From Arcobacter nitrofigilis DSM 7299 (GTDB lineage: Bacteria > Campylobacterota > Campylobacteria > Campylobacterales > Arcobacteraceae): 64,000 nt of DNA. The notes below the pieces were generated by a model that saw only the letters and a program-made list of their open reading frames with translations, had not been told where the DNA came from and did not search any database. The DNA lies in the NCBI RefSeq assembly GCF_000092245.1, contig NC_014166.1, positions 2,170,001-2,234,000 on the forward strand, in the 5' to 3' direction. The translations under genes were made by a program, and so were the position numbers. Each line of letters starts with the position of its first letter. Position 1 is the stretch's first letter. Below, piece after piece: positions 7,550-44,905 of the stretch.

Positions 7550-7699
7550 ATCAAAAGAAATAACAAAGAATAGTAAAAAAAACCAAAAATAATCTATTCT
7601 CAATAAAAGAAAAAATCTCAAAAAGTTACCAATTTATTTTAATTTTTTGGATTTAATAATTTTATTTCTAACAATAATATAATTTTGGGAGTAATAAAG

Positions 7700-25200: not shown

Positions 25201-25603
25201 AAAAATTGATTATAAACATTTACCAAAAATAGATATTCTAGAAAAATACCATGCAAATTATGTAGCACCTAAAAATAAATTAGAAACAACTATCCAAAAT
25301 ATTATTTCAGAACACTTATCTATTGAAAAAGTTAGTGTTGAAGAGAGTTTATTTGATTTAGGTGCTACTTCTTTAGATGTGGTAACTATACATAATCAAT
25401 TAGAAACAAAATTAAATATAAACTTATCAATTTTAGATTTATTTGATAAACCAACAATAAGAACACTTTGTCTTCATATTGAACAAAAAGATAATCAAGT
25501 CAATAATATTTTAACTCAAGCAAGACAAAAAGCTAAAACTACTAGCCGAAGACAAAGATTAATACAAAGACAAAATAAAATAGGAGAAGAGAATGAACTA
25601 TAA
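22205..25603 (+). CDS. NRPS module Cy-A(Cys)-PCP
   Basis: The 1132-aa protein condenses and cyclizes a cysteine. The Cy domain (about 40-470) has DxxxxDxxS at D177, D182 and S185 in place of the HHxxxDG of ordinary condensation domains; Cy domains form thiazoline or oxazoline rings. The A domain (about 490-1000) has YTSGSTG (659-665), and its code reads by eye as DLYNMSLIWK, one change from the well-known cysteine code DLYNLSLIWK. The carrier domain has GATS with Ser1056 instead of the common GGDS. It starts 13 bp after the PKS gene, with AGGAAAAG before the ATG, and its end overlaps the next start by 11 bp. No methyltransferase, oxidase or epimerase domain is present, so a simple thiazoline is expected. 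Confidence 0.92.
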   Translation: MTELSKEQRELMAKLLKEKGLSDNPTPKENSITINPDEINRYEPYPLTDIQQSYLLGRSQKFLLGNVASHAYIEMDIENLDISQYEYAWQKIIERHDMLRTIVNQNGLQQTLKDVPKFKVTTHDLTNLPDEKRKVKALLEIRDSLSHQILPTDQWPLFNIHVSNIDNTQYKIHWSFDAIISDVYSNFIFQEELYNYYHQSNSSYAPLKLTFRDYVLTLKNQEETSFYENAKNYWLKKIKTLPSAPMLPLKRDLSEIEKPHFKRLKFTMENTQWKIIKQKSKTYGLTTTSVLLTVFSHILHRWSRNPDFTLNMTVFNRPPWHKEMDKIVGDFTITMLLGIDALSGDNKIFKDLAKNIQSKLFTDLEHRLYSGVNVMQQWSKISGNKQIAPIVFTSALTVGDISSKLDADKNQLGQMTYSITQTPQVLLDHQVYEEDGKLIIHWDYVEEAFEENLLSIMFDSYINALNLLGKDNTSWEEELSIHMPSLQKELRISYNNTKDEELLNLSNKPIYYSFIEQVKKQATATAIVSTNKTLTYEELAYRAYALNIQLQKRGLGGGDNIAIILPKGWQQVVAVLGVLASGASYIPIDNNSPKQRLNKILKDTNCKYVISIEQCYKSLSLTDEIICLFIEDELAKKDPQAVDFWPIKHTNDDIAYIIYTSGSTGMPKGVMMSHNSVMNTVLDINKRFNINKEDSIFGLSALNFDLSVYDIFGTLAAGATLVLPDAKQEKNPQHWQECLKNHPCTVWNSVPALLQIFLEYTPNKTILESFKTVMVSGDKIPLNLVNIVYEKMPNTHLFSLGGATEAAIWSIYYPIKKLTNNFKNIPYGIPLSNQSIHILDENYRPCPDYAVGKLYIGGIGLSKGYFNDKIKTHKHFIQNPHTKEFLYDTGDLGSFNPSNGGYVEFKGREDNQIKLSGFRIELGEIENNLNEHPDINKAIVVLVEDKSLKKSKQVLVAYIATNKIIDENKIKQYLNDHLPEYMIPRFYITLDEIPLSINGKIDYKHLPKIDILEKYHANYVAPKNKLETTIQNIISEHLSIEKVSVEESLFDLGATSLDVVTIHNQLETKLNINLSILDLFDKPTIRTLCLHIEQKDNQVNNILTQARQKAKTTSRRQRLIQRQNKIGEENEL

Positions 25604-28600: not shown

Positions 28601-31600
28601 TTGCAAAGATGTGTTTCTAGCAAACCCAGCTTTTGAATCAGTATTTATTAATTCAGGTGAGCAACTAGCAGACGTACTAAGTGGAAAGACAAAAGCTATA
28701 GATGCCATGATGATGGAAACATCCATAGATGAAGCAAAAGAAATCTATGCTGATCTACCAACTTCATATTATTTTAATGCTTTATTACGAGAAACAGTTA
28801 AAAGTTGGGTTTCAAATATGCCCAATAATATCCCCCTTAAAATTTTAGAAATTGGCGCAGGAACAGGTGCAACAAGTGAACAATTATTGCCATTATTACC
28901 AAAAGATAGAAGTACATATTATTATACAGATGTATCTCCTATATTTTTACAACGAGCTAATAAAAACTTTGAAGAATATAACTTTGTAAACTATACCCTG
29001 TTTGATATCAATAAAAATCCTAAGGAACAAGGACTAGATTATAATAGCTTTGATTTAATAATTGCTTCAAATGTTTTACATGCTGCTGATGATTTGCAAC
29101 ATACTATGAACAATGTATCAAAACTATTAAAACCAAATGCTATGTTATTTATGTATGAAATTATAAAAGAAACATTAATTGGAGAACTTACTACGGGCTT
29201 ATTATTACCTATAGTTAAAGATACAGAACTACGAGGAATGCAACCTTTTATGACAAAAAATCAATGGGAATCTCTATTGATAAAATTAGGTTTTAAAAAT
29301 TTCCATTCCATACCTGAAGAAAATACAGATACTTCTTTCATAGGAGAAAGAATTTTATTAGCACAACAAAAAGAAGTAATAAGTGAAGAAAAAGAATATA
29401 ATAATTATTTCCATCATATTCAGTGGGATAAAAATGAAGTTCCAATAGAAAAAATTAATCATTTATTAAAAGAAAGCTCAAACTGGCTCATTTGCAGTGA
29501 TAAAGTAGGATATACACAAGAACTTACCTCATTACTTAAACAACATAATCAAAATGTATCTAATATTGAATTAGATATATCTTCAAAATTGCTTAATGAA
29601 AAAATAAAAGAAACATTTAATAATAATAAACCTGTTCAAATTTTATATTTATGGGGAGTTGAAAATATATCATTAAATCAATTATCAGGTTCTCAATTAC
29701 AAGAAAAGCAAGCAGTTTCATCCTTAAAATTACTAGATATATTATCTGCATTATCACAAATAAATTTAAAAAATTTAAAAAATCTAAGTATTATAACAAA
29801 TGGATCTCAACATACTAGTGCCATTCCTAATCAAAATATTGCATTATCCCAAGCCACACTTTGGGGTTTTTCTCAAGTTGTTGCATTAGGTCACCCTGAA
29901 TTAAAAGTCAAACTAATTGATTTTGATACAGAAATGTCTATAAAAGATAATAGTATAGATTTATTAAAGAATCTTCTAAGTAAAAATAATTCAAATGAAT
30001 ACCAACTTATTTTACGTAAAAACAATTGCTATTTACCTCGTATACGATCTTTAGAAAATACTGATATAACTCCAACTATCCAAAAAGTAAATATTGATGC
30101 TAATGGATGGTATGTAATTGCAGGTGGATTAGGTGGATTAGGTTTAAAAACAGCTTCTTGGCTAATAGAAAATGGGGCAAAAAATATTTTACTTATTGGT
30201 CGTAGTAAGCCTAATATTCAGGCAAAAGAGGAAATAGACAACTTTACTAAATTAGGAATTAATATTAAAGTAGCACAGCTTGATATTACAGATTATGAGT
30301 CTCTAGAAAAATTAATTAATAATCTTGATTTACCCCTTAAAGGTGTAATACATAGTGCAGTTGTTCGTGATACTAAAACCCTAGGAGAAATGTCACAAAA
30401 GGAAAGAACCCTTGCTGTTATTTCACCAAAACTTGAAGGTGCTTGGAATTTACATAAAATTACTCAGAACCATAAAGAGTTAGATTTATTTATATTATAC
30501 TCTTCTTCTGTATCTTTAATCCCAGCAAGAGGTTTACCAGAATATGTTGCAAGTAATGCCTTCTTAGATGCATTAGCACACTATAGAAAATCTAAAAATT
30601 TACCAGCCATAAGTATTAGTTGGGGAGCTTGGGCGGAAGTTGGAACAGTTGCTAACACAAGTCAAGAAGAACAATTAAGACAAAATGGCTTAAATAGTAT
30701 TGGAGTAAAACAATCTTTTAATTGCTTAGAACAAATTATTACAGGAGATTTTAAAGATACCCACATGGGAATATTTGATGTAAATTGGAATAAACTACTA
30801 CAAAATCATCCAAAAAATCAACTATCTAGCTATTTTAAAGATGTATTAACAGTATCATATATTGAACAAAAACAAGGGAGTGAAGAAAATTTAGCTCAAC
30901 AACAACATAAATTGCTAGAAAATCTTAAATCATCTAAAAATTCTGGACAATCCTTAGAGTTCATTAGTGATTATTTAAAACAAAAAATTTCTGTATTATT
31001 ACGCATAAATGTAGATGATGTACCTTCAGAAAAAGATTTATTGCACTTGGGAATTGACTCTTTAATGTTTTTAGATTTACTAAATAATCTTAATCAAGTA
31101 TTACAAATCAAAGTAAAACCAAATGAAGTAATGGCAAATTTAAATATAAATGCCATAAGTGAACATTTATTAAAAGCTATGCAAAGTACAAATCATTCTG
31201 ACATAGCAGAGTTACTCCTAGTTGATAAAGATTCTTTAACAAAACCTTTTCCTCTAACAGATATTCAACAAGCCTATTGGATTGGTAGAGATCAGCATAT
31301 GGATTTAGGAAATATTGCTTGCCATGGATATATGGAAATTGAGTGTAAAGATTTAGATATAGCGTTATTAGAAGATGCGTGGAACAAACTAATTCAAAGA
31401 CATGAAATGTTATGTTGCATAATTCATCCTTATGGACAACAACAAATATTAGACAATGTAAAAGAATATCATTTTGAAGTAAGAGATTTTAGTAAAACTG
31501 CAAAAAAAGTTAGTGATAAAGCATTGGAAGAAATACGAACAGAATTATCACATAGAGTACCTCAAACTGATAAATGGCCACTATTTGATATACATGCCAC

Positions 31601-34600
31601 TAAACTGCAAAACAATGTTACAAGACTACATATTAGTCTAGATAATATCATGACAGATGGTCGGAGTATTGGTATTATGCTAAGTGAATGGGTGCATATA
31701 TATAATAATCCTCAAGATACTTTACCTAACTTATCTCTGACATTTCGAGATTATATTATGACTTTTGAAGCATACAAACAAACAGAGGATTATCATAAAG
31801 CTAAAAAGTATTGGGTAGATAGGTTAGATGAAATTTATCCTTCACCACAATTACCCCTTGCTAAAGATCCATCTAAAGTTAGTACTCCTAAATTTATTCG
31901 TAGAGAATTTCATTTAAGTGAAGAAAAATGGCAAATATTAAAAAGCTTAGGAGCACAAAAGGCAGGACTTACTCCTTCTGGAATTTTACTTTCAGTATAT
32001 GCACAAGTATTATCTCTTTTTAGTAATAGTGCAAAATTTACTTTAAATGTACCAACATTTAATCGTTTGGCTGTACATCCCCAAGTTAATGATATTATTG
32101 GAGAATTTACTTCTCTTATTTTACTAAGTGTTGATTTTAGCAAGCAATTATCTTTTAAAGAACAAGCAAATATCTTGCAAAAACAACTTTTGAAAGACCA
32201 ATCTTATGATTCTTTTAGTGGTGTTTCTGTTATGAGAGAACTAGCAAAACATTCTAAACAAGCCAATATGCCAGTTGTATTTACTAGTACCTTTGGTTTA
32301 GCTGAAAATGTTAATACCACTTTTAGTGAACATGAAAGCCAAGCCAAAGAGCTTGGAAAACAGATTTATACAATAAGTCAAACACCTCAAGTTTATATTG
32401 ATAATCATGTTCATGACTATGGTGGTTCTTTAAATGTATATTGGGATTGTGTAGATGAGTTATTTCCAGAAGGAATGCTTGATAGTATGTTTGAGGCATA
32501 TGGTAATTTATTGGAACAATTAGCTAATAATGAACAAGTATGGGAATCAACCCAAGCAATTAAAATACCTATATCACAAGAACAAAAACGTATTCAGTAC
32601 AATAATACTCAAAACTTTGATTATTTACCAAAGCAAGATGATTTATTAAGTGGTTTTTTACGTCAAGTGAAACAATCTCCTAATCACTCTGCATTAATTA
32701 CAAATAATGAAAATCTAAGCTATAAGGAATTATTTGAAAGATCTTGCTTTTTTGCTTGGCAATTACAAGAATCAGATATAAACCCCTTAGAAAAAGTAGC
32801 TATCATATTACCAAAAGGATGGCAACAAATATCTTCTATAATTGCTACACTTGGTGTCAATGGGACATATGTACCTTTTGATTATAAATTACCAGAAAAA
32901 AGGTTATTACAGTTATTAGAAGTAGCCAAAATCTCTTATGTAATTACTTCTAAAGAAATGAAAGATAATTTTACTTGGCCAAAAAATATAAAATTAATAA
33001 CTACTCCATCAAATTGGGGAAAAGAAGAAGAGAAAATTGTACAAAATAACAATATTGAATTTATGCCATCAAACAATCAACAGTTGGCATATATTATATA
33101 TACTTCTGGTTCTACGGGTATACCTAAGGGAGTGATGATAAGTCATCATAGTGCATTAAATACTATACTTGATATTAATGATAGATTTAAAATAACAAGT
33201 GATGATATAGTATTTGGTTTATCAGGAGTACATTTTGATTTATCAGTATATGATATATTTGGTACATTAAATGCAGGAGCTTGCCTAGTATTACCAAATG
33301 AAGAAGGGACAAAAGATCCAAATCATTGGATAGATCTCATTGAAAAACATAAAATTACTATTTGGAACAGTGTACCTGCATTATGCGAAATGCTACTTAT
33401 TCAAACAAATGCAAATAAAGTAACTATGCAAGAGATGCGATTAGTCCTATTGAGTGGAGATTGGATACCACTATCACTCAAAGACAAGCTACAAAAAAGT
33501 ACAAAAAATGCAAAACTTTATAGTCTTGGTGGTGCTACAGAAGCATCTATTTGGTCTATTTATTATCCTATTGAAGATATTGACCCTACTTGGAATAGTA
33601 TTCCCTATGGAAGGCCTCTAGCAAATCAACAATTTTATGTTTTAAATGAAAAATATAATGATTGCCCACAATTAGTTATAGGTGATTTATATATTGGAGG
33701 AGAAGGCTTATTTATGGGCTACTGGCAAGATGAAGGAAAAACAAAAGAATCATTTATTATCCATCCAATAAGTGGAGAGAAACTATATAAAACTGGAGAT
33801 AAAGGTCGTTTTCATCCTAATGGTTATATTGAATTTTTAGGACGAAATGACTTACAAGTAAAAATCAATGGACACCGTATTGAACTAGGAGAAATAGAAT
33901 CTTCACTTCTTCAAAATGAGCTTATTCAAAATGTTGTAGTTACAGCTATTGACACCTATGGAAATAGTGAAATATCTACTAGTATAAAAGATAATAAACA
34001 AAAACTTATCGCCTATTGTGTGTGCAAAGAGAAAAACTTAAGTGAAATTGAAAGTAAATTAAAAATATGGACTAAAGAACGATTACCAAATTATATGGTA
34101 CCCAATCATTTCTTTATATTAAATAGTATACCTTTAACAAAAAATGGTAAGTTAGATAGAAAAGCATTACCTTTACCAAGTAATGAAAAAAAAGAAATCA
34201 AAAGTAGTACTCCTCAAACAGAAAATGAAAAATTATTATTATCTATATGTAGGGAAATTTTACAAGTAGATGATATTAATATACATAGTGACTTTTTTGA
34301 TATTGGAGGAGATTCTCTTCAGGCAACAAGACTAAGTATATCATTACAAAAAGAAGGCTTTAATCTATCTGTAAATCAGATATTTATGAACCCCTTCTTA
34401 GAAGATATGGCACAGTTTATAAAAGCCCAAAATGATTCTTCTCTGGAAAATAAAAAACAAGAAATGATAAGCTTAGAGTTTAATAATTCGTCTAGTATTT
34501 TAACATCCTTTAATACTATTAGTGAAGAAAAACCAAATATATTTTGTATACATGGTAGTGATGGAGGAGTTTTTGTATTTAATGAATTAGCAGATCAATT

Positions 34601-35309
34601 AGAAAATGATTTTAATATTTATGGTATTGCTGCTCAATCGACTATTGAAAAAAACAACATTTCAGACATTGCAAGTAGCTATTTAGAACAAATAAATACA
34701 AGGGACACAGCCTATCCACCTATTATTTGCGGATTTAGTTCTGGAGGATTTGTTGCGTGGGAAATTGCTCGTCAATTAAAAGAAAGAGGAGAAGACTTAA
34801 CTCAATTAATTTTAATTGATACTCAGTTTTTACCACAAGAATTAAAAGATAACTCTTTATTAATCCTAGTTCTATTTGCTTTATCTTTTAACATGAATAT
34901 AGAGCTTCTTCCAATAAAAGAAGAACTAATAGTAAAATTGAAGAATAATACATATACAAATAGTGAGTTAAATGAAATACAAAAACTAAATGAAGAAGAA
35001 TTTGAAGATTTATTTGAACAACTAATTGATTCAAATAGCTTATTAAATAATGATAGCACTAATTTACGTCGGAAGTTTAATATTTTTAAACAGTATGTAG
35101 AGTTTACAATAGAGTATGATATGCCACATCTATCAAGTGTTGATACATTACTTCTTCAAGCGAAACAAAGTGTAAAAAATCACCAAAGTTGGAATAGTTT
35201 CGGTGATAAAATACAACATATTGAAGTGGATGGAAACCATATGAGTTGCTTACAATACCCAAATGTAAGTTCAATATCTAATACAATACAAAATTTTAGT
35301 AAAAAGTAG
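25593..35309 (+). CDS. Hybrid PKS-NRPS with release: KS-AT-MT-KR-ACP-Cy-A(Cys)-PCP-TE
   Basis: The 3238-aa terminal synthase resembles yersiniabactin HMWP1 in domain order but carries its own A domain. KS (about 12-430) has SACSTS with Cys173 and HGTGT. AT (about 525-830) has GHSVG with Ser621 and HAFH (721-724), indicating malonyl-CoA. A C-methyltransferase (about 1000-1270) has the SAM motif LEIGAGTGA. KR (about 1504-1690) has GGLGGLG and an intact Tyr1651/Asn1655. ACP serine is about 1823. Cy has D2017, D2022 and S2025. The A domain (about 2360-2870) reads exactly as the cysteine code DLYNLSLIWK. PCP serine is about 2908. The thioesterase has GFSSG with Ser3049 and a candidate catalytic His3216. 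It should add a methylated, reduced C2 unit, form a final thiazoline and release the acid by hydrolysis or cyclization. Confidence 0.93.
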   Translation: MNYKNISDNPDAIAVIGMSGIFPQAKDINKYWDNLINGVESIIQFSNEESSTKGHFVRAAATVDDIDCFDAKFFNYSAYEAEILDPQQRLFLECCWHALEEAGYSPDKAGNVGVFAGSNISTYLLLAQQSILAKGDTTHLLQLLMGNDKDYLATRVSYKLNLTGPSICVQSACSTSLLSIHTAVQSLLNGECKMALAGGVNISIPQELEYEYKEGMIFSPDGHCRAFDADAKGTVAGNGVGAVVLKPLSDAIEDGDSIHAVILGSAVNNDGARKIGYTAPSIEGQSSVIAQAIALADIPVNTIDYIETHGTGTPLGDPIEIRSLSQVFQNETKEKGFCAIGSVKPNIGHLNCAAGIASFIKTVLSLKNAQIPPSLHYKKANPEIDFINTPFFVNDKASLWPKRNHPRRAGVSSFGFGGTNVHMILEQAPEKIETNIKKDDEINLVVLSAQSQKQLHTLAEDYNNYLQNTEESLQNISFTSIEGRNHHNERLAIVAKNHNHLKQQVQEFLNTKENIQGYIGTKNYSTKIACLFTGQGSSYPNMAKELYTSNKLFHKNLNLCAKELENLLDIPLIDLIFGKEEHTNLLTQTKYAQPAIFAIEYSLYNMYRGMGIEFSVLAGHSVGEIVAACVADVFNLKDALKLITSRGQLVQNLETNKGGMLAIFTNQEIIDKYINIYPQLSIAAHNGPNHFVLSGENIILEKLIEQLDKDNIEYSKLKVSHAFHSSLLDPILDDFEKLVASFDMKIPNTQIVSNLYGRIVKNEEITTAKYWREHMRKPVLFMESINTLENMDINCFLECGPHPVLTNMGKKCVSNTDYQWIHSLQRNQEDKKIILSAVAQLYCKGIDIQWEGLAHNKDYQRVSLPTYPFDKQKYWLSTVADSLQTHKQDGPLTIWNNILSSGNKQAKEGSKALNISQLKYDEKVLITLAQSFIIKALRSLDLFTDDKKYSLDSILQKVIPQYHQLIQRFLEELNVVGLLKSKDKQFWQLKDINNQIIKEQKNDCKDVFLANPAFESVFINSGEQLADVLSGKTKAIDAMMMETSIDEAKEIYADLPTSYYFNALLRETVKSWVSNMPNNIPLKILEIGAGTGATSEQLLPLLPKDRSTYYYTDVSPIFLQRANKNFEEYNFVNYTLFDINKNPKEQGLDYNSFDLIIASNVLHAADDLQHTMNNVSKLLKPNAMLFMYEIIKETLIGELTTGLLLPIVKDTELRGMQPFMTKNQWESLLIKLGFKNFHSIPEENTDTSFIGERILLAQQKEVISEEKEYNNYFHHIQWDKNEVPIEKINHLLKESSNWLICSDKVGYTQELTSLLKQHNQNVSNIELDISSKLLNEKIKETFNNNKPVQILYLWGVENISLNQLSGSQLQEKQAVSSLKLLDILSALSQINLKNLKNLSIITNGSQHTSAIPNQNIALSQATLWGFSQVVALGHPELKVKLIDFDTEMSIKDNSIDLLKNLLSKNNSNEYQLILRKNNCYLPRIRSLENTDITPTIQKVNIDANGWYVIAGGLGGLGLKTASWLIENGAKNILLIGRSKPNIQAKEEIDNFTKLGINIKVAQLDITDYESLEKLINNLDLPLKGVIHSAVVRDTKTLGEMSQKERTLAVISPKLEGAWNLHKITQNHKELDLFILYSSSVSLIPARGLPEYVASNAFLDALAHYRKSKNLPAISISWGAWAEVGTVANTSQEEQLRQNGLNSIGVKQSFNCLEQIITGDFKDTHMGIFDVNWNKLLQNHPKNQLSSYFKDVLTVSYIEQKQGSEENLAQQQHKLLENLKSSKNSGQSLEFISDYLKQKISVLLRINVDDVPSEKDLLHLGIDSLMFLDLLNNLNQVLQIKVKPNEVMANLNINAISEHLLKAMQSTNHSDIAELLLVDKDSLTKPFPLTDIQQAYWIGRDQHMDLGNIACHGYMEIECKDLDIALLEDAWNKLIQRHEMLCCIIHPYGQQQILDNVKEYHFEVRDFSKTAKKVSDKALEEIRTELSHRVPQTDKWPLFDIHATKLQNNVTRLHISLDNIMTDGRSIGIMLSEWVHIYNNPQDTLPNLSLTFRDYIMTFEAYKQTEDYHKAKKYWVDRLDEIYPSPQLPLAKDPSKVSTPKFIRREFHLSEEKWQILKSLGAQKAGLTPSGILLSVYAQVLSLFSNSAKFTLNVPTFNRLAVHPQVNDIIGEFTSLILLSVDFSKQLSFKEQANILQKQLLKDQSYDSFSGVSVMRELAKHSKQANMPVVFTSTFGLAENVNTTFSEHESQAKELGKQIYTISQTPQVYIDNHVHDYGGSLNVYWDCVDELFPEGMLDSMFEAYGNLLEQLANNEQVWESTQAIKIPISQEQKRIQYNNTQNFDYLPKQDDLLSGFLRQVKQSPNHSALITNNENLSYKELFERSCFFAWQLQESDINPLEKVAIILPKGWQQISSIIATLGVNGTYVPFDYKLPEKRLLQLLEVAKISYVITSKEMKDNFTWPKNIKLITTPSNWGKEEEKIVQNNNIEFMPSNNQQLAYIIYTSGSTGIPKGVMISHHSALNTILDINDRFKITSDDIVFGLSGVHFDLSVYDIFGTLNAGACLVLPNEEGTKDPNHWIDLIEKHKITIWNSVPALCEMLLIQTNANKVTMQEMRLVLLSGDWIPLSLKDKLQKSTKNAKLYSLGGATEASIWSIYYPIEDIDPTWNSIPYGRPLANQQFYVLNEKYNDCPQLVIGDLYIGGEGLFMGYWQDEGKTKESFIIHPISGEKLYKTGDKGRFHPNGYIEFLGRNDLQVKINGHRIELGEIESSLLQNELIQNVVVTAIDTYGNSEISTSIKDNKQKLIAYCVCKEKNLSEIESKLKIWTKERLPNYMVPNHFFILNSIPLTKNGKLDRKALPLPSNEKKEIKSSTPQTENEKLLLSICREILQVDDINIHSDFFDIGGDSLQATRLSISLQKEGFNLSVNQIFMNPFLEDMAQFIKAQNDSSLENKKQEMISLEFNNSSSILTSFNTISEEKPNIFCIHGSDGGVFVFNELADQLENDFNIYGIAAQSTIEKNNISDIASSYLEQINTRDTAYPPIICGFSSGGFVAWEIARQLKERGEDLTQLILIDTQFLPQELKDNSLLILVLFALSFNMNIELLPIKEELIVKLKNNTYTNSELNEIQKLNEEEFEDLFEQLIDSNSLLNNDSTNLRRKFNIFKQYVEFTIEYDMPHLSSVDTLLLQAKQSVKNHQSWNSFGDKIQHIEVDGNHMSCLQYPNVSSISNTIQNFSKK

Positions 35310-35315
35310 ATTTTA

Positions 35316-36059
35316 ATGGATTCAATAACAAAAAACAAATGGATACAATACGAAGAAAAAGAAAATGTTAAATTACGTCTATTTTGCTTGCCATATGCAG
35401 GAGGAGGATCATCTATTTATCGGCTTTGGCAAAAATCAATGCCAGAGCATATACAAGTATGCAAAATTCAACTACCAGGTAGAGAAAATCGTATAGATGA
35501 GCAAGCAATAGATTCTATGGAAGACTTAGTAAAAACCCTAGCAAAGCAACTCTTTAATTATTTAGATAAACCATTTGCTCTCTTTGGTCATAGTATGGGA
35601 GCAATGGCTACATATGAACTTGCTAAATATTTATCAAATAATACCCCTTATAGTCCTAAGCATGTATTTGTATCTGGATGCAGAACACCTAATACTCCTC
35701 ATAACCATATAACATATCACCTAGAAGGTGAAGAGTTTATTGATTCGCTAAGACAAAGGGGAGGAACAAATGAAGTGCTATTAAATAATAAAGACTATAT
35801 GAAAATGGTCGAACCGACATTGCGTGCTGACTTAAAACTTATTGAAAGATGGCATCACAATGACATAGAAACCCTTAATTGCCCATTAACAGTATTAGGG
35901 GGAGTAAATGATACCTTAGTTTTACCAACTAACTTAAAACAATGGCATCAGTATACAAACAAAATATTTGAATTAAAATTATTTGAAGGTGACCACTTTT
36001 TTATAAATGATGATTCACATAATATTGCTTCAATAGTGGCAAATACATTAAAACAATAA
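35316..36059 (+). CDS. Type II (editing) thioesterase, YbtT-like
   Basis: The 247-aa alpha/beta hydrolase has FCLPYAGGG near the N-terminus, the nucleophile motif GHSMG with Ser93, and GDHFFIND with the catalytic His near the C-terminus. This is the standard type II thioesterase pattern (GrsT, YbtT, PchC). Such enzymes remove wrong or stalled acyl groups from carrier proteins in PKS/NRPS lines. It starts only 6 bp after the terminal synthase, so it belongs to the same operon. It probably clears mis-primed carriers among the many carrier domains here. Confidence 0.93.
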   Translation: MDSITKNKWIQYEEKENVKLRLFCLPYAGGGSSIYRLWQKSMPEHIQVCKIQLPGRENRIDEQAIDSMEDLVKTLAKQLFNYLDKPFALFGHSMGAMATYELAKYLSNNTPYSPKHVFVSGCRTPNTPHNHITYHLEGEEFIDSLRQRGGTNEVLLNNKDYMKMVEPTLRADLKLIERWHHNDIETLNCPLTVLGGVNDTLVLPTNLKQWHQYTNKIFELKLFEGDHFFINDDSHNIASIVANTLKQ

Positions 36060-36086: not shown

Positions 36087-37448
36087 ATGTCAGAAACAAA
36101 AAAAATAATAGAAATGATTGAAAATGATAATACAACGCAAAAAGATTATGAAAATATAAAATTACCCAGTTCAATGAATGCTTTAGTAACCTTAAAAGAA
36201 GAAGAGAATATTTTTGGGGAAATGGAAACTGAAGATAAAGATATTTCAAAAACATTACATTACAAAGAAGTAACTATTCCTGAAGTTGGAGATGATGAAG
36301 TATTAATTGCTGTTATGGCTTCTGGAGTTAATCATAACACAGTATGGTCTGCAACTTTTGAGCCATTGCCAACTTTTAATTTTTTATCCCACTATGCTAA
36401 ATCAAATCCAAAAAATAAAAAACATAACTTAACTTATCATATATTAGGAAGTGATGCAGCAGGAGTTATTGTAAAACTTGGAACTAAAGTTCATGATAAT
36501 TGGAAATTAGGAGACAGAGTTGTTATTTGCCCAGCAGTTACTTCTAATACAAACCCTCAGTCTTATAAAGATTCGATGTCAGATCCAAACACAAAAGCTT
36601 GGGGATATGAAACAAATTTTGGTGGATTAGCAGAATTTTGTTTAGTTAAATCTACCCAACTAATGAAAAAACCAGAACACTTAACTTGGGAAGAAGCAGC
36701 CTCTTTATCTCTTGTTTCAAGTACAGCATATAGAATGTTAGTTTCTCAACATGGTGCAGAAATGAAACAAGGAGATAATGTCCTAGTTTGGGGAGGTGCA
36801 GGTGGAATGGGTGCAATGGGTATTCAATATGTACTAAATGGTGGAGGAAGACCTATTGCAGTTGTTTCTAGTGAAAAAAAAGCAGAACTAGTAAAAAAAC
36901 TAGGTTGTGAATATGTAGTAAATAGAGCAAAGAAAAATTTTAATTTCTTTAAAGAAGATGGAAGTATTAATAAAAGGCATCTTATTGCATTTAAAAGTAC
37001 AGTTGAACGCTTAATAGATAAAGAATCTGCTGATATTGTTTTTGAACATACAGGTAGAGAGACTTTTGGAGCAAGCGTTTTTGTTGCTAAAAGTGGAGGG
37101 AAAATTGTCACGTGCGGTTCTACTACAGGTTATGAGCATACATTTGATAATCGTTATTTATGGATGTATGTAAAATCTATCATAGGTTCACATGGAGCTA
37201 ATATCTATGAAGCCTATAATGCTAATAGATTATCATGCTTAGGAAAAATAAACCCTATATTATCAGAAGTGTATACCCTTGAAAACTCTATTGAAGGTTG
37301 CATAAAAGTTAAAAACAATCAACATATTGGGAAAGTTGGTATTTTATGCTTATCTCCCAAAGAAGGATTAGGTATCAAAGACCATGAATTACGTCAAAAA
37401 GTAGGTGAAGATAAAATTAATATCTTTAGAAACTTAAAAAATAAGTAA
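36087..37448 (+). CDS. Crotonyl-CoA carboxylase/reductase-like enzyme (alkylmalonyl-CoA supply)
   Basis: The 453-aa medium-chain reductase has the CCR length and hallmarks: NHNTVW near 82, WGYET near 172 and GGAGGMGAMG (236 onward). Tyr174-Glu175 and His369 line up with the Phe-Glu and His that, as I recall, hold CO2 in characterized CCRs. CCRs reductively carboxylate a 2-enoyl-CoA with NADPH to an alkylmalonyl-CoA, for example crotonyl-CoA to ethylmalonyl-CoA. The residue after His369 is Gly370 (SHGAN) where crotonyl-type enzymes commonly have Phe (SHFAN). As I recall, a Gly here is found in the octenoyl-CoA enzyme CinF and widens the pocket. It is the last gene of the operon, 27 bp after the thioesterase, with an AAAGGA ribosome site, and likely feeds the AT with the RAGH motif. 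Confidence 0.88.
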   Translation: MSETKKIIEMIENDNTTQKDYENIKLPSSMNALVTLKEEENIFGEMETEDKDISKTLHYKEVTIPEVGDDEVLIAVMASGVNHNTVWSATFEPLPTFNFLSHYAKSNPKNKKHNLTYHILGSDAAGVIVKLGTKVHDNWKLGDRVVICPAVTSNTNPQSYKDSMSDPNTKAWGYETNFGGLAEFCLVKSTQLMKKPEHLTWEEAASLSLVSSTAYRMLVSQHGAEMKQGDNVLVWGGAGGMGAMGIQYVLNGGGRPIAVVSSEKKAELVKKLGCEYVVNRAKKNFNFFKEDGSINKRHLIAFKSTVERLIDKESADIVFEHTGRETFGASVFVAKSGGKIVTCGSTTGYEHTFDNRYLWMYVKSIIGSHGANIYEAYNANRLSCLGKINPILSEVYTLENSIEGCIKVKNNQHIGKVGILCLSPKEGLGIKDHELRQKVGEDKINIFRNLKNK

Positions 37449-37450
37449 AT

Positions 37451-38155
37451 TTATTTATATAAATTATAAGCATCAAAATATGACATAGTTACATTAGGAC
37501 TTTGAATACACATAGCTCCTAAGTACTGTGTTGATATATTTAAAGGATACAAAAACCATTCTTTTATTTGAAAATTATCAATAGGTATTTCTTTAGTATT
37601 TTGAGGAATAACATGAAAACTATCAAGGGGAATACTAAGTCCTAAGCCCAATGCTTTAATATAAGCTTCTTTTCTCACCCAACAGTAAATAAAAGCCTCT
37701 TTTTGCTTCTCTAGGGCTAGGTTTTTTATCCAAAGTCTTTCTCTTTTTGTAAAATATCTTGTTGAAATATCTATGATATTGCTATCACAATTCATATTTT
37801 CCAAATCAATTCCAATCTCATTATTTCTTGAAAATGTGATTATAGACATATCTGTACTATGACTTATATTAAAATAAAGGTTGCTTCCTTTTATATATAT
37901 CTTGCCATAATTATTTTTATATAAAGTAATTGAATATGAATCATTATCAAGGTAATACTTAAGTAGTATTTTTAGCGTTATCCTTGTAGTAATGTATGCT
38001 TTTTTTTTATTGCTAATTCGATATTTATTAGCACGATTTAATTCATCGGGAGTTAATAATTCACTATATTTATAAATATCTTCAGATATTTTATCTATTT
38101 CTATTTTCCAAATATGTACATTATTATTAAATAAAGGAACCATAAGGTTTTCCAT
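37451..38155 (-). CDS. 4'-Phosphopantetheinyl transferase, Sfp type
   Basis: The 234-aa protein carries both Sfp-type motifs: GIDLE with Asp117 and Glu119 binding magnesium, and WVRKEAYIKA with Glu163 and Lys167. Sfp-type enzymes attach the phosphopantetheine arm to carrier domains. This cluster needs it for the six carrier domains of the FAAL and the four synthases. It converges on the CCR gene with only two bases between the stop codons, so there is no room for a separate terminator. Broad-range Sfp enzymes are commonly linked to siderophore NRPS loci, as EntD is. Confidence 0.93.
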   Translation of the reverse strand: MENLMVPLFNNNVHIWKIEIDKISEDIYKYSELLTPDELNRANKYRISNKKKAYITTRITLKILLKYYLDNDSYSITLYKNNYGKIYIKGSNLYFNISHSTDMSIITFSRNNEIGIDLENMNCDSNIIDISTRYFTKRERLWIKNLALEKQKEAFIYCWVRKEAYIKALGLGLSIPLDSFHVIPQNTKEIPIDNFQIKEWFLYPLNISTQYLGAMCIQSPNVTMSYFDAYNLYK

Positions 38156-38255: not shown

Positions 38256-38285
38256 AAAAATAGAAGTATTCCTACTTCTATTTTT
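38256..38285 (-). terminator. Rho-independent terminator of the TonB receptor gene
   Basis: A perfect 13-bp stem (38256-38268 with 38273-38285) encloses the tetraloop TTCC. Read on the minus strand it is followed by a T-rich tract. The right arm touches the receptor's stop codon. Confidence 0.8.
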
Positions 38286-40369
38286 TAAAATCTATATCTA
38301 GCACCTATCCCAAAAAACCTTGGGTCACCAAATGTTGCCATTGTAAATAAACTATTTGCTTCATAAGTATTAATATATTTTTCATCTGTTAAATTTTTAC
38401 CATATACATAAATATCCCAATCAGAAAATTTATATCCTACTTTAACATCAACTAAAGTATAACCATCTTCTTTAGGAAAAGTTTTATGGGCATCATCATA
38501 AAATGACATTGAACCTTGATTTCTCACATCTGTACGGGCATAAAATCCATTGGGATGATAATAAGCTACACTTAAATTTGCTGTATGACTAGGTGTAGTT
38601 TCTATTTCTTTACCACTAAAATCATTATCTCCAGCAACATAAGAATCATATTTTGTTTTTATAAAACCAAGTGCCCCACTTACTTCTATCCTATCTGTAG
38701 GAAAATATCTAAAGTCAAATTCGATACCTTCTGAATGTGCTTTATCAGCATTGTCGGTATAATAATTAGTTGTGGCACCAACCGTTTCTTGTCTATTAAT
38801 ATGAATATCTTTTATATCCATTCTAAATATTGCAGCAGTAAACATAAAATCACCTACTGACCCTTTAATACCTATTTCATAATTTGTAGATCTTTCTGGT
38901 TCAAATCTATTATCCTCTTTTTTAGAATTTCTAGCTAATACATTAAATCCTCCTGGCATATAACCTTTAGAAACAGATACATAAGGAGAAAAATTTTCAT
39001 TTATTTTATAATCTAAAGCAACTTTGGGAATAAATACATTCCAACTTCTTTTATCATTATATTCATTATTTTTAGTAGTATTTGAAAAGCCATTCAAGTC
39101 AATTTCTCTTTTGATTTTCTGATACCTACCACCAAGAGTTAATTTCAATTGTTTATTTAAAGGAATCATTGCTTGCCCAAAAATAGCTTGAGTAGTACTA
39201 TCAATAGAAGAAACAGTATTAGTCTTTCCAAAGTTAACACCATTCATTATTGTTTCACTTCCATAAGCATCTTTATTCTTTTCTTCTTTATCTAAATATA
39301 ATCCAGTAACCCAACGAATACCATCATTTTCTTTATTAGACAATCTTATTTCTTGAGAATATGTATCTGAAGAAGCATCATTAAATAAATAAGAACCATC
39401 AAGAGTAGTTCCATTTGTAAAATCAGCATCATAATTACCTTTTAAATTAGTCTTTCTATGTACAGTCACAGCATCAAATATATAGTTATCACTTTCATAT
39501 TTAATATCAATACTTTGAGAATCAATGGAATTTTTTTCAAGCATTGGTTCTTCAAAACTAGTATTTTCAGCATTCTTTCTTTTAAATTCATATAAATTGG
39601 TACTTCCTACTATTCCATAACCTTTAAATCCATAGTTTTTAATTTTTTCTTTTTTTAATACTAATTTTGTTGAAAGTTTATCTGTTGCTTTATAATATAA
39701 AGATGTTCCAAAACTCTTATCATCTTCTTTTGCTGCTTTTTTATCACCTTTATATTTATTATTAATCCATCCATCTGTTGATGTTATCTCACCATTAAGA
39801 TTGAAGAAAAGTTTATTATCAATTATTGGTGTATTTACATTAAAGGTTGTTCTTTTATAATTATTACTACCATACTCAACCCCTATATTCCCACTTGTAT
39901 AATTAGTAGGTTCTTTTGTTATGATATTTATAACACCACCTATGGCATCTTTCCCATAAAGTGTTCCTTGTGGGCCCCTTAAAACTTCTATTCTCTCAAC
40001 ATTTTCTAAAGAAGTATTAAAAGCACGCTTGGATGAAGTAGGAATTCCATCAACATAAACTACAATAGGATTATTTTCAGTAAATAAAGAAGCGTTTAAG
40101 CCTCTAAAGTTCACCTTAACTCCACGGTCAGGTATAGATGCCATATTTGGTATTTCATTTATCACATCTACAATCGTTTTAATACCTCTTTCTTCTAGCA
40201 CTTCTCCACTTATGACAGTAATACTTTGAGGAACATCTTGAATATTCTCTTCAACCTTATTTGCTGTTACAGTAATATTATCCATCTCTTGTGCAGAATC
40301 TTTACCATAAAGCGTAGTTGATGTTGATAAAGATATTACAGATAGTATTATCAATTCTCTAATTTTCAT
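38285..40369 (-). CDS. TonB-dependent outer-membrane receptor for ferric metallophore
   Basis: The 694-aa protein has a signal peptide (about 1-22), a TonB-box-like DNITVTA near 30, a plug domain (about 40-155, with VPQSITVISGEVLEERG and RGPQGTLYGKDAIGG) and a 22-strand-type barrel ending in an aromatic RYRF C-terminus. Size and plug motifs match siderophore receptors such as FyuA, but I cannot assign the ligand from sequence. Its place at the edge of the biosynthetic genes, with a Fur-like box in its promoter and GGAGG before the start, makes uptake of the cluster's own ferric product the likely role. No inner-membrane ABC importer for the complex is in the window. Confidence 0.92.
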   Translation of the reverse strand: MKIRELIILSVISLSTSTTLYGKDSAQEMDNITVTANKVEENIQDVPQSITVISGEVLEERGIKTIVDVINEIPNMASIPDRGVKVNFRGLNASLFTENNPIVVYVDGIPTSSKRAFNTSLENVERIEVLRGPQGTLYGKDAIGGVINIITKEPTNYTSGNIGVEYGSNNYKRTTFNVNTPIIDNKLFFNLNGEITSTDGWINNKYKGDKKAAKEDDKSFGTSLYYKATDKLSTKLVLKKEKIKNYGFKGYGIVGSTNLYEFKRKNAENTSFEEPMLEKNSIDSQSIDIKYESDNYIFDAVTVHRKTNLKGNYDADFTNGTTLDGSYLFNDASSDTYSQEIRLSNKENDGIRWVTGLYLDKEEKNKDAYGSETIMNGVNFGKTNTVSSIDSTTQAIFGQAMIPLNKQLKLTLGGRYQKIKREIDLNGFSNTTKNNEYNDKRSWNVFIPKVALDYKINENFSPYVSVSKGYMPGGFNVLARNSKKEDNRFEPERSTNYEIGIKGSVGDFMFTAAIFRMDIKDIHINRQETVGATTNYYTDNADKAHSEGIEFDFRYFPTDRIEVSGALGFIKTKYDSYVAGDNDFSGKEIETTPSHTANLSVAYYHPNGFYARTDVRNQGSMSFYDDAHKTFPKEDGYTLVDVKVGYKFSDWDIYVYGKNLTDEKYINTYEANSLFTMATFGDPRFFGIGARYRF

Positions 40370-40666: not shown

Positions 40667-41431
40667 ATGATTAAAAAAATAACAATAGTATCTCTTTTTA
40701 TTTCACAAGTCTTTGCCCTCACCCCTTTTGAAATAGCAATAAATGTTAAAAAAAATTCAGATGGATATGGGAGCTCAAAAAGTGTATTAGAGATGATTTT
40801 ATTGGATCAAGCTAAAAACAAATCAAAAAGAATAATGGAATCAATCTCTTTTGAAAATAAAAATCATTATGGCATAAATGGAGATAAATCATTAATGGAA
40901 TTTAAAACACCATTAGATGTAAAAGGTACAAAATTCTTAACCCATGAAAAAATAAATAAAAATAACAACCAATGGTTATATCTACCTGTACTAAAACGTA
41001 TAAAACGTATAACTAGTAAAAATAAAAGTGGTTCTTTTATGGGAAGTGAATTTTCTTATGAAGATATATCTTCAAGGGAACCTTCAAAATATACTTATTC
41101 TACTAGCACAGAAGATACTAAGATAGGCAATATAGACGTTTATAAATATGAAAGATACCCTAAAGATAAAAATTCAGGATATTCAAAACAAATACTTTTT
41201 GTGGATAAGACTAAATTTGTAATTTTAAAAGTAGAGTTTTTTGATAAGAAAAATGAACTTCTCAAAACTGCAAAATATACTTATAGAAAAATAAAAAATA
41301 TATATAGAGTTGCCAAAATACAAATGAATAATCATCAAAATTTAAAATCTACTACCTTAACTTATGTAAAAGATGACATCAAATTAAATCTAGATGAAAA
41401 GCTTTTTTCAAAAAGATACTTAAAAGACTAA
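40667..41431 (+). CDS. LolA-like outer-membrane lipoprotein-sorting family protein
   Basis: The 254-aa protein has a signal peptide (about 1-17) and the family pattern LPVLKRIKRI...KSGSFMGSEFSYEDIS around residues 105-140, typical of periplasmic proteins with a LolA-like fold (outer membrane lipoprotein-sorting protein family). These carry hydrophobic ligands and are often encoded with MMPL-type transporters. It is the first gene of a three-gene operon and starts behind a Fur-like box. It may shuttle a lipid-like substrate between the MMPL pump and the outer membrane. Here the inferred substrate is the lipid-started metallophore, or a lipid altered during iron limitation. Confidence 0.82.
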   Translation: MIKKITIVSLFISQVFALTPFEIAINVKKNSDGYGSSKSVLEMILLDQAKNKSKRIMESISFENKNHYGINGDKSLMEFKTPLDVKGTKFLTHEKINKNNNQWLYLPVLKRIKRITSKNKSGSFMGSEFSYEDISSREPSKYTYSTSTEDTKIGNIDVYKYERYPKDKNSGYSKQILFVDKTKFVILKVEFFDKKNELLKTAKYTYRKIKNIYRVAKIQMNNHQNLKSTTLTYVKDDIKLNLDEKLFSKRYLKD

Positions 41432-41434
41432 TTT

Positions 41435-42586
41435 TTGAAAAAAATATTATTTAGTTCTTTACTTCTAGTAAATATTGTCCTAGCTAAAAATGAGATAAAA
41501 AGTTATATTGGATATGAGTATAAATCTTATTTAAAAACAAAAGGTGATACTAGAAATTATAACAGTGCCATTACCTTTCAAAATGAGTTTAAATACTCTT
41601 TTGAAGACTCATATTTATATTCAAAAATAAATATTTTAAAAGATAGCAGTGAAGGACAAAGAGATTATGTCAATATATCAGAGCTTTATTACTCTAAAGC
41701 ATTTGAAAATTTTGATTTAAATTTAGGTAAAAAAATTATATTTTTAGGAAGTTTAGAAGCTAATAATATAGTAAATATATTTAATCGTCAAAATTATCAA
41801 AAAGATTCTTTAAGCATTTATAAAAAAGGTTCAATTATGGCAAACCTGAACTATTTTTTTAATGATGATTCTACTTTAAAACTATATGTAAAAAGTTTTG
41901 AAGAAAACATAAAACTACCAAGTACAAACTCCCCTTATAGCCCTTTTAAAACAAATATATACTCAAAAAAAATAAATTTTTCAAATAAAAGAGAACAACC
42001 ATCTTTCTTAGCTGTATATTCAAAAAGTTATGATGATGAAATAATCGCAGATATAAATATGGGCTTTTTTTACGGCTATGATGAGAATATACTCTATCAA
42101 AAAACAAATAATAAAATAAACCCTTATCTTTTCCAAAGTGCAAAACTTTTTACATATGATACTTTTGTACTAAACTCCACACTTTATAAGATTGAAGCTA
42201 GTTATACAAAAGTAGAAAAAGATGGAGAATTTGATATAAAAAATTTTTATGAAATTGGTATTGGTAGCGAATATACTATAGAACAAATTTATAAAAATAA
42301 TAGCTTAGGATTAATAGCTGAATATTATAAAAGTGATAACAAAAATACAAGCTTTGATAATGATCTATTTTTAGCACTAAGATATTCATTAAATGACAAA
42401 GATTCCAGTGAATTTTTAACAGGAATTATAAAAGATACAAAAAAAAGTGATATGAGTGCATATATAAAATATAGTGGAAGATTAATTGATAATTTAAATG
42501 TATCAGCAGATATAAGATATCTAAAAAGTGACAACTATATTGGTGAGCATTTACGCTTTGGTTGTGAAATAAAGTACTACTTTTAA
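41435..42586 (+). CDS. Putative outer-membrane beta-barrel protein
   Basis: I do not recognise a named family. The 383-aa protein starts with TTG, three bases after the previous stop. The choice is supported by the signal peptide it gives (KKILFSSLLLVNIVLA) and the absence of a nearby ATG. The mature part is full of alternating hydrophobic and aromatic strands (for example IGYEYKSYLK, YSKINILK, LRFGCEIKYYF) and ends in Phe, as outer-membrane barrels do. Between a LolA-like protein and an MMPL pump, it may form the outer-membrane part of the same export route. The function is inferred from context only. Confidence 0.7.
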   Translation: MKKILFSSLLLVNIVLAKNEIKSYIGYEYKSYLKTKGDTRNYNSAITFQNEFKYSFEDSYLYSKINILKDSSEGQRDYVNISELYYSKAFENFDLNLGKKIIFLGSLEANNIVNIFNRQNYQKDSLSIYKKGSIMANLNYFFNDDSTLKLYVKSFEENIKLPSTNSPYSPFKTNIYSKKINFSNKREQPSFLAVYSKSYDDEIIADINMGFFYGYDENILYQKTNNKINPYLFQSAKLFTYDTFVLNSTLYKIEASYTKVEKDGEFDIKNFYEIGIGSEYTIEQIYKNNSLGLIAEYYKSDNKNTSFDNDLFLALRYSLNDKDSSEFLTGIIKDTKKSDMSAYIKYSGRLIDNLNVSADIRYLKSDNYIGEHLRFGCEIKYYF

Positions 42587-42607: not shown

Positions 42608-44905
42608 ATGAATAAAAAAGAAAAACTTGCACATAATATTATAAAATATAGATGGTCAATAGCTATTTTGATTCCTATTCTTATAATAATTATTTTTGCG
42701 TTAAATATACATAAAGCAGGAGTTGAAACAGATTGGAAAATATGGTTTGATAAAGATTCAAAAGTTATGAAAAACTTTACACACTTTAAAGAAACTTTTG
42801 GTTCAGATGATAGAATTATGATAGTATTAAGTGATAAAAATAGTATCTTTAAAAAAGATATATTAAAAAACATAAAAACTATTACAGAGAGTTTATGGCA
42901 GACAAAACTTATAGCAAGAGTTGATTCTATTACAAACTATCAATACTCTCATGTAAGTAAAGAAGATGAAGATGAGATAATTGTTGAAGACTTCATTGAT
43001 AATATTGATTCTCTAACAAAAAAAGATTTAGAAGAAAAAAAAGAAATAGCAATAAGCGATCCACAAACAAAAAACTTATTAATCTCAGCTGATGGAAAAT
43101 CTGCAATCATAATCGCAAGAATAGTTTACAAAGAAAATATAAAAGCAAATGATTATATAACTTTATATAATGCTTCAAAAAAACTTATTGAAGAAAATAA
43201 AATCAAAGGTGTTGAATACCATATAGTAGGTGTACCGGCTTTTACAGATGCTTTTATCAATGCCATTAAATCAAATTTTATAATGTTTATGCCACTTTTA
43301 TTTATTTGTATTGTCGTTCTACTTGCATTGATTTTTAGAAATATTTGGGCTGTAGTTTTACCCCTAACTATAGTTATTTTAACTATTCTTTTTATTGCTG
43401 GATTCTCTTTTGGTTTAGGATATAAACTAAATACACTAACTTCTATGTTTCCTATTTTTGTTATAGCTATAGGAATAGCTGACTCCATACATATTTTTTG
43501 GGTTTGGATACATAAAAGAAAAGAAGGTTTAAACAATGAAGAAAGTATAGTCTTTTCTATAAATAAAAACTTTACTCCTGCCTTAATCACCTCTCTTACA
43601 ACTTTTGTAGGATTTTTGTCACTAGGAGTAAGTAAAATAATTCCACTTCAAGCCTTCGGTATAGTTGTAGCTTCAGGAGCTATTATTGCATTTATATTAA
43701 GTATTTTATTTTTACCTGCCATGTTAAGCATACTAAACCCTAAGATAAAAGAACAAAAACAAAAAGTTTATAAAACACATGAACGAATAAAATCATATAC
43801 TAATTTTGTAGTAAAAAATGATAAAGCTATCATAATATCGTGTCTTATAGTTATTAGTATTTGTTTTATAGGACTAAAAGACACTACTATTGATACAGAT
43901 TTTCTAAAACAATTTTCTAAAACAACAGATATAAGAAAAAGTACTGATTTTGTGGAAAAAAATATAGGTGGAACTATCTCTATGGAAATTATAATAGATA
44001 GTAAAAAAGCTTCAGGTATAAATAAACCTGACTTTATGAAAGATGTCGAAAAATTCAAAATTGAATTTAAAAATCACTTTTCAAAAGTAAGACATATAAA
44101 TTCTATAACTGATGTAGTAAAAAAATACAATCAACTTATGAATGGAAATAAAAAAGAATTTTATAAAATACCTGATTCTAAAGAACTAATTTCCCAATAT
44201 TTACTTTTATATTCATTATCTCTTCCACAAGGAATGGGAATAAATGATATGATGGATACAAAAAACAGATACTTAAGACTAACCTCTATGAACAACCTTG
44301 CAAGTGAACAAGAAAAACTCAAAATGTATAGATGGACTGAAGACTGGTGGAAACAAAACAGTAAATATTCTGCAACCCTAGAAGGATTGACTTTAGTTAC
44401 AGCACATATGAAAATTGAGCTTACAAATACTATGATTAAATCCGTATTACTTGCACTTTTATTCGTAACCTTGATTTTTTGGTTTACATTTAAATCAAAA
44501 TTCTATATGTTAATCTCCGCCGTTCCAAATATAGCTCCACTTCTCATAGCAATGGGTATAACTGGATGGATAGGCATAAATATGGATTTAGGTATGGCTA
44601 TAGTTTTTGTAATCATTATAGGAATTGCTATTGATGATACTGTTCATTTTCTCTCAAAATATAAAGATGCCATATCAAAAGGATATACAACCCGTGATGC
44701 CATAGAAAAAGCCTTACTTTTGAGCGGAAGTGCTATAGTGATTACTACGGTTATATTAGTTACTGCATTGGGAATATTTTTATTAAGCGATTTCACTATT
44801 TATTCAAATTTTGGATTTGTAAGTAGTATTGCATTATTTTGTGCAATGATTTTGGATTTACTCCTACTTCCAGCAAGCTTAAGTTATATGAGTAAAATAA
44901 AATAA
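42608..44905 (+). CDS. MMPL/RND-superfamily exporter
   Basis: The 765-aa membrane protein has the two-fold MMPL layout: a helix near 15-35, a large periplasmic loop, a bundle of helices (about 210-375), a second loop, and a final bundle (about 600-760). The final bundle includes the conserved GIAIDDTVHFLSKY segment with the paired Asp residues expected for proton use. Relatives move lipids, hopanoids or lipopeptides; mycobacterial MmpL4 and MmpL5 export siderophores. It follows the barrel gene by 21 bp and shares the Fur-like promoter at 40596. Export of the cluster product is the most economical reading, but a lipid-transport role independent of the cluster is possible. Confidence 0.85.
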   Translation: MNKKEKLAHNIIKYRWSIAILIPILIIIIFALNIHKAGVETDWKIWFDKDSKVMKNFTHFKETFGSDDRIMIVLSDKNSIFKKDILKNIKTITESLWQTKLIARVDSITNYQYSHVSKEDEDEIIVEDFIDNIDSLTKKDLEEKKEIAISDPQTKNLLISADGKSAIIIARIVYKENIKANDYITLYNASKKLIEENKIKGVEYHIVGVPAFTDAFINAIKSNFIMFMPLLFICIVVLLALIFRNIWAVVLPLTIVILTILFIAGFSFGLGYKLNTLTSMFPIFVIAIGIADSIHIFWVWIHKRKEGLNNEESIVFSINKNFTPALITSLTTFVGFLSLGVSKIIPLQAFGIVVASGAIIAFILSILFLPAMLSILNPKIKEQKQKVYKTHERIKSYTNFVVKNDKAIIISCLIVISICFIGLKDTTIDTDFLKQFSKTTDIRKSTDFVEKNIGGTISMEIIIDSKKASGINKPDFMKDVEKFKIEFKNHFSKVRHINSITDVVKKYNQLMNGNKKEFYKIPDSKELISQYLLLYSLSLPQGMGINDMMDTKNRYLRLTSMNNLASEQEKLKMYRWTEDWWKQNSKYSATLEGLTLVTAHMKIELTNTMIKSVLLALLFVTLIFWFTFKSKFYMLISAVPNIAPLLIAMGITGWIGINMDLGMAIVFVIIIGIAIDDTVHFLSKYKDAISKGYTTRDAIEKALLLSGSAIVITTVILVTALGIFLLSDFTIYSNFGFVSSIALFCAMILDLLLLPASLSYMSKIK

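Follow-up and report, generated by a model that had tools for sequence, protein, structure and literature searches.

The biosynthetic operon found in a 64,000-nucleotide stretch of the Arcobacter nitrofigilis DSM 7299 genome (hereafter the window; NC_014166.1, positions 2,170,001 to 2,234,000) ends with a gene for an enoyl-CoA carboxylase/reductase (CCR), which raises the question of which enoyl-CoA this enzyme accepts and where the resulting extender unit is used. We consider it probable that the enzyme is a CinF-type CCR making an alkylmalonyl-CoA of medium chain length, roughly butyl to octyl, which module 2 would insert into a thiazoline metallophore primed by a fatty acyl-AMP ligase (FAAL). 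Substrate range, selectivity of the acyltransferase AT2, product and metal binding are what we infer from sequence.

Organisation of the cluster and its counterpart in Veronia

The operon is a same-strand gene run that starts with the FAAL gene at position 7685 and ends with the CCR gene. The genes considered, in window coordinates, are:

6130–7116, + strand, AraC-family regulator upstream of the operon (Pfam HTH_18)
7685–9793, + strand, FAAL-ACP, fatty acyl-AMP ligase starter (NCBIfam/Pfam)
9790–17499, + strand, PKS1, KS-KR-ACP-AT1-Cy-A-PCP, with KAFH in AT1 (domain and motif search)
17518–22191, + strand, PKS2, KS-AT2-KR-ACP module (Pfam)
22205–25603, + strand, NRPS, Cy-A-PCP (domain and motif search)
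25593–35309, + strand, PKS4, KS-AT3-MT-KR-ACP-Cy-A-PCP-TE, with HAFH in AT3 (domain and motif search)
35316–36059, + strand, type II thioesterase (Pfam Thioesterase)
36087–37448, + strand, CCR (enoyl-CoA carboxylase/reductase), CinF-like, final gene of the operon (TIGR01751, Foldseek)
37451–38155, − strand, phosphopantetheinyl transferase (NCBIfam HetI-type match below cut-off, 129.6 of 370 bits)
38285–40369, − strand, TonB-dependent siderophore receptor (TIGR01783, 240.7 bits, cut-off 223.5; Pfam)
40667–41431, LolA-like lipoprotein-sorting protein, preceding the MMPL/RND gene
41435–42586, unknown protein of 383 aa, preceding the MMPL/RND gene
42608–44905, + strand, MMPL/RND-type transporter, putatively for export (RND and LolA-like counterparts by the Veronia cluster)

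Heterocyclisation motifs (DxxxxDxxS) were found at 14692 (DGWTIDGWS), 22733 (DAIISDVYS) and 31641 (DNIMTDGRS), and the motif scan of the cluster returned no HHxxxDG. Two of the three A domains contain FDLSVYD, which we take to be a typical A-domain signature for cysteine selection; the A domain of PKS1 has YHDLVLFDIFG in its place near residue 2108 and may therefore select another amino acid. The AT of PKS1 (about 13276–14124) is located after the ACP and not after the KS, an order that looks conserved in the PKS1 of Veronia pacifica, which aligns nearly end to end.

The three Cy motifs, the receptor, the AraC-family regulator and the FAAL priming together are consistent with a thiazoline metallophore resembling micacocidin and massiliachelin. 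From the order of the modules, the predicted chain would be fatty acyl, hydroxy-ketide, ring, hydroxy/alkyl-ketide, ring, methylated hydroxy-ketide and ring. The FAAL start, Cy-type domains, MT, TE and siderophore receptor are shared with massiliachelin/micacocidin and yersiniabactin-type lines, as described in the consulted part of PMC6604713. Unlike massiliachelin, for which that part of the source mentions no CCR, the window alternates three PKS and three Cy modules, and its product is predicted to contain an alkylmalonyl unit.

An orthologous cluster with the same gene order is present in V. pacifica, with identities of 44 (FAAL), 46 (PKS1), 51 (PKS2), 54 (NRPS), 52 (PKS4), 45 (thioesterase) and 64% (CCR), and with TonB, RND and LolA-like genes close by. 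The only CCR match among 397 sampled genomes of the window's phylum was the window's own, and the only one among 247 sampled genomes of Veronia's family was that of Veronia itself. Horizontal transfer likely explains this sparse distribution, and the occurrence of the same machinery in a member of the Vibrionaceae points to transfer between phyla.

CCRs serve the central ethylmalonyl-CoA pathway in many bacteria, and the enzyme could belong to that pathway and lie beside the cluster by chance. This is scarcely credible here: the CCR gene follows the thioesterase gene on the same strand after 27 bp, the gene order is kept in Veronia, and no CCR match occurs in any of the 396 further genomes sampled from the phylum. 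The central-pathway assignment is moreover contradicted by the absence of a match to the methylmalonyl-CoA-mutase family (PF01642) in the window genome, while 8 of 14 control genomes match.

Pocket residues of the CCR

The CCR gene (36087–37448, + strand) encodes 453 aa, including IIGSHGANIYEA, and its product scores 475.3 bits against TIGR01751 (crot-CoA-red), above the curated cut-off of 378.55; it is the only CCR above the cut-off in the genome. With its AlphaFold model (mean pLDDT 86.4, weak at 346–350), Foldseek returned solved CCRs as top matches, including 6OWE, an ethylmalonyl-CoA complex, and 4A0S, which is CinF in complex with 2-octenoyl-CoA. The family active-site residues are present as N84, E175 and H369, which we take to be the active-site Asn, Glu and His of CCRs. 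In an alignment of 98 rows (80 homologues from genomes, 14 CCRs from plasmids, the window enzyme and 3 solved proteins) the Asn and His columns are invariant (98/98), and the Glu column is conserved in 95 of 98. Two features of the gene concern the acyl pocket:

36597–36599, + strand, Ala171 codon, corresponding to CinF Ala163; Ile in crotonyl-type CCRs
37191–37196, + strand, His369-Gly370 in SHGAN; Gly370 corresponds to CinF Gly362 and AntE Val350

An earlier note on this DNA had read SHGAN at His369-Gly370 where crotonyl enzymes have SHFAN, and the codons agree (His369, cat, 37191–37193; Gly370, gga, 37194–37196). The solved crotonyl-type CCRs compared here (3hzz, 6owe, 6na4, 6na3 and 3krt) all have SHFAN at the motif and the pocket pair Ile/Phe. 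The note had also pointed to a Gly at this position in CinF, and 4A0S indeed reads SHGAN, with Gly at 362. Beyond Gly370, Ala171 is a second pocket change of the CinF type: A163/G362 of CinF match A171/G370 of the window in the alignment, both pairs being 199 residues apart.

The variation at both pocket positions was counted in 80 aligned CCRs from named genome records. Position 370 is Phe in 73, Gly in 5, Cys in 1 and Ile in 1, and the pairs are Ile/Phe (73), Ala/Gly (5), Ala/Cys (1) and Ala/Ile (1); the two columns thus always covary in this set, all 7 sequences other than Ile/Phe having Ala with a non-Phe residue. Over the 98 rows the pairs are Ile/Phe 79, Ala/Gly 13, Ile/Gly 2, and Ala/Cys, Ala/Ile, Ile/Ala and Val/Val 1 each. 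The alignment check proposed earlier, for another bulky residue filling the pocket, found no bulky residue in place of Ile or Phe at either pocket column of the window enzyme. Strongly diverged alphaproteobacterial CCRs (L106–L109, n = 4) and a Burkholderia CCR (L110) are still Ile/Phe; a gene annotated meaA lies near the CCR of L106. At the class-separating columns 149, 150 and 344 the window enzyme carries the CinF residues, and at column 212 it has Ser, as in crotonyl-type enzymes, with Gly in CinF and Veronia.

It should be noted that Ile171 occurs together with Gly370 in 9KVA and in L111, so that Gly at position 370 alone is not diagnostic of a long chain. The window CCR has small residues at both positions (163/362 in CinF numbering), as the CinF type does. 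The Ala/Gly pair is retained in the V. pacifica CCR, and since this 64%-identical enzyme shares SHGAN, the motif was kept by descent and is no one-off.

The Gly370 position is also a known engineering site, that of V350 in the antimycin enzyme AntE. The AntE numbering was fixed by the difference between wild-type and V350A chains at residue 350, chain position 21 being residue 1. According to the consulted parts of PMC6164871 and PMC6117356, V350G broadened the substrate range of AntE, and butyl, pentyl and hexyl side chains were obtained from the engineered line. Unlike the window CCR, AntE belongs to another subfamily, has a Val/Val pocket and is promiscuous. One AntE-subfamily CCR (L099) was found to be Ala/Gly at both pocket positions, and the wide pocket has therefore perhaps arisen more than once.

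Phylogenetic placement and Ala/Gly relatives

The 98 rows were placed in a maximum-likelihood tree by a quick method, and the program warned of long branches. The window and V. pacifica CCRs pair at support 100, and 72 Ile/Phe rows form a separate clade at support 96. The window/Veronia pair joins a 12-row CinF clade at support 92, below the 95 mark; because of the long-branch warnings, this join should be regarded as likely rather than secure. CinF itself, the 2-octenoyl-CoA carboxylase/reductase of cinnabaramide biosynthesis (4A0S/4A10), shares with the window CCR the Ala/Gly pair, SHGAN, the fold and probably also the side of the tree. It differs in that it comes from Streptomyces and is 46% identical in the structural alignment; the window CCR is set apart by Ser212 and by its place in a FAAL-primed assembly line for a thiazoline product. 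The CinF clade also holds an Ile/Ala CCR (L100), adjoining KASIII and 3-hydroxybutyryl-CoA dehydrogenase genes, so the two pocket residues are not inseparable.

Among other Ala/Gly CCRs, those of L051 and L097 are located in clusters of the actinonin/matlystatin/lydiamycin type, both of which contain MeaB and a gene of the methylmalonyl-CoA-mutase type; L097 has an epimerase in addition. A plasmid cluster of Rhodococcus fascians produces lydiamycin with a 2-pentyl-succinyl group, its CCR being LydM (PMC12130866, in the part consulted); we equate the L097 CCR with LydM on the basis of strain, plasmid and gene content. For actinonin and matlystatin, the route from octenoyl-CoA via hexylmalonyl-CoA is backed by feeding of labelled octanoate (PMC5719088, likewise in part). 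The window CCR is thus like LydM, MatL and ActF, the CCRs of hydroxamate or pentylsuccinyl clusters, in having the Ala/Gly pair seen in L097 and L051, and for clusters of their type the consulted parts of the same two sources give a hexylmalonyl-CoA route. These clusters, however, rearrange hexylmalonyl-CoA by a B12 mutase, which the window genome does not have.

Acyltransferases and the point of entry

The unit would enter the chain at the second PKS, where two features are relevant:

19129–20049, + strand, AT2 of PKS2, proposed alkylmalonyl-selective acyltransferase (Pfam Acyl_transf_1; GHSLGEY ... RAGHS)
19708–19719, + strand, RAGH selectivity motif of AT2, HAFH in malonyl ATs (motif comparison)

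Malonyl-type motifs are found in AT1, as KAFH in the window and HAFH in Veronia, and in AT3, as HAFH in either cluster. AT2, with GHSLGE...RAGHS in both clusters, is the sole one of the three PKS ATs without such a motif, small residues taking the place of HAFH/YASH. For comparison we took the Veronia PKS2 (L085) and 15 further loci (L113–L127), of which L114 and L115 had no AT match and L116 was PKS4 of the window. In the remaining 12, all from genomes without a CCR match, every AT2-like domain inspected has (H/K/Q)(A/G)FHS (HAFHS, HGFHS, KAFHS or QAFHS); being 31–41% identical to AT2, these are relatives and not orthologues. In Veronia's family, 78 of the 247 sampled genomes have a PKS2 match, and AT motifs were inspected in those taken as loci. 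One of the loci, in another genome of the window's family (L113, G341:C1:129768-134195), encodes a PKS2-like protein (33%) with QAFHS and one in-frame TAG; no CCR match was found in that genome.

In the consulted parts of the respective sources, AGHS has been proposed as a hexylmalonyl AT motif common to DpnP2, PteA5 and CinA (PMC10888640), AAGH belongs to a proposed butylmalonyl AT (PMC6273641), and small-residue motifs are described for ATs of exotic units, including isobutylmalonyl ATs (PMC6490886). The XAGH motif is, in turn, reported for ethylmalonyl ATs (PMC7496768, in part), and near Ile/Phe CCRs we found RAGHS at L104 and VAGHS at L014 and L032. AT2 therefore says 'not malonyl' and does not give a chain length. 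The use of AT motifs near genome CCRs as a discriminator of long and short chains failed, as few ATs were in reach and xAGH occurs with Ile/Phe CCRs.

The ethylmalonyl motif and the RAGHS next to the Ile/Phe CCR of L104 are compatible with a CCR that makes ethylmalonyl-CoA from crotonyl-CoA, or that is promiscuous with C4 as its physiological substrate, module 2 then giving an ethyl branch. The existence of Ile/Gly CCRs argues in the same direction, as does crotonyl-CoA, which would also be an intermediate of the beta-oxidation route of this genome. We nevertheless regard an ethyl branch as unlikely, since both pocket columns hold the CinF residues, against Ile/Phe in 79 of 98 rows, and the Veronia orthologue retains the same pair.

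Supply of the enoyl-CoA

The preferred reading, a medium-chain alkylmalonyl unit, calls for a linear enoyl-CoA of corresponding length. The window genome has a gene run (L095) for FadD-like, FadI-like, FadJ-like and FadE-like proteins, a FadE of this type being present in 23 of 397 genomes of the phylum. A second acyl-CoA dehydrogenase locus in this genome (L096) resembles Rv1679/Rv1680. No KASIII or 3-hydroxyacyl-CoA dehydrogenase gene is among the annotated genes of the operon; L100 and L102 have them. Beta-oxidation is likely the source of the 2-enoyl-CoA, drawn from fadE/J/I/D-type genes rather than from a dedicated pathway, because none adjoins the CCR gene. Elsewhere, an Ala/Gly CCR gene (L060) adjoins acyl-CoA dehydrogenase, HMGL-like and aconitase-family genes, hinting at alpha-keto-acid chain elongation as the substrate source there.

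An enlarged pocket might instead accommodate a short enoyl-CoA that is branched, unsaturated or substituted (isobutyl-, allyl- or chloroethyl-type). SalG, a CCR for a C4 chloro-substrate, also has a small residue at the position of Gly370. An Ala/Ile CCR (L083), in whose locus an AT with RPGHS is found, may represent a further specificity class and demonstrates that variants exist in the clade, and the small-residue motifs of isobutylmalonyl ATs (PMC6490886, in the part consulted) are in keeping with such a substrate. Yet the operon's annotated genes include neither KASIII nor 3-hydroxyacyl-CoA dehydrogenase, and beta-oxidation yields linear enoyl-CoAs; we regard a substrate of this type as unlikely.

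Proposed route and significance

In the route that we favour, Ala171 and Gly370 in place of Ile and Phe would enlarge the acyl pocket of the CCR, which would reductively carboxylate a medium-chain trans-2-enoyl-CoA of about C6 to C10, most likely C8, taken from the fadE/J/I/D-type beta-oxidation genes. The product would be an alkylmalonyl-CoA, e.g. hexylmalonyl-CoA; AT2 of PKS2, with its RAGHS motif, would load this unit, and the chain begun with a FAAL-activated fatty acid would be extended by it. The thiazoline-type metallophore would thereby carry another alkyl tail, placed between two of the modules that form heterocycles. As the CCR has the two small pocket residues of CinF, the product probably bears this second oily side chain. 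The longer extender suggested in the earlier note, in place of ethylmalonyl-CoA, is thus supported by Ala171, the likely CinF-side position in the tree, the AT2 motif and the beta-oxidation genes, and only its 'long-chain' wording should give way to the safer 'medium-chain'.

The CCR is of a known type; what is newer is its occurrence in a thiazoline line primed by FAAL. A search for crotonyl-CoA carboxylase together with siderophores, covering titles and abstract openings and few subscription journals, returned no apparent report of such a cluster. More tentatively, and with some doubt, we suggest that a bacterium with AT-rich DNA, which is not among the classic producers, may make a two-tailed thiazoline metallophore, with one tail from the FAAL-activated fatty acid and the other from CCR-made alkylmalonyl-CoA fed directly by beta-oxidation. 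In that case the length of the side chain, and with it the balance of membrane anchoring and release, would vary with the fatty-acid diet of the cell. If true, CCR-made alkylmalonyl units would be known from a thiazoline metallophore as well. The product would then be an amphiphilic metal chelator, and because the CCR and the AT that determine its second tail have simple, readable motifs, the idea is open to direct testing.
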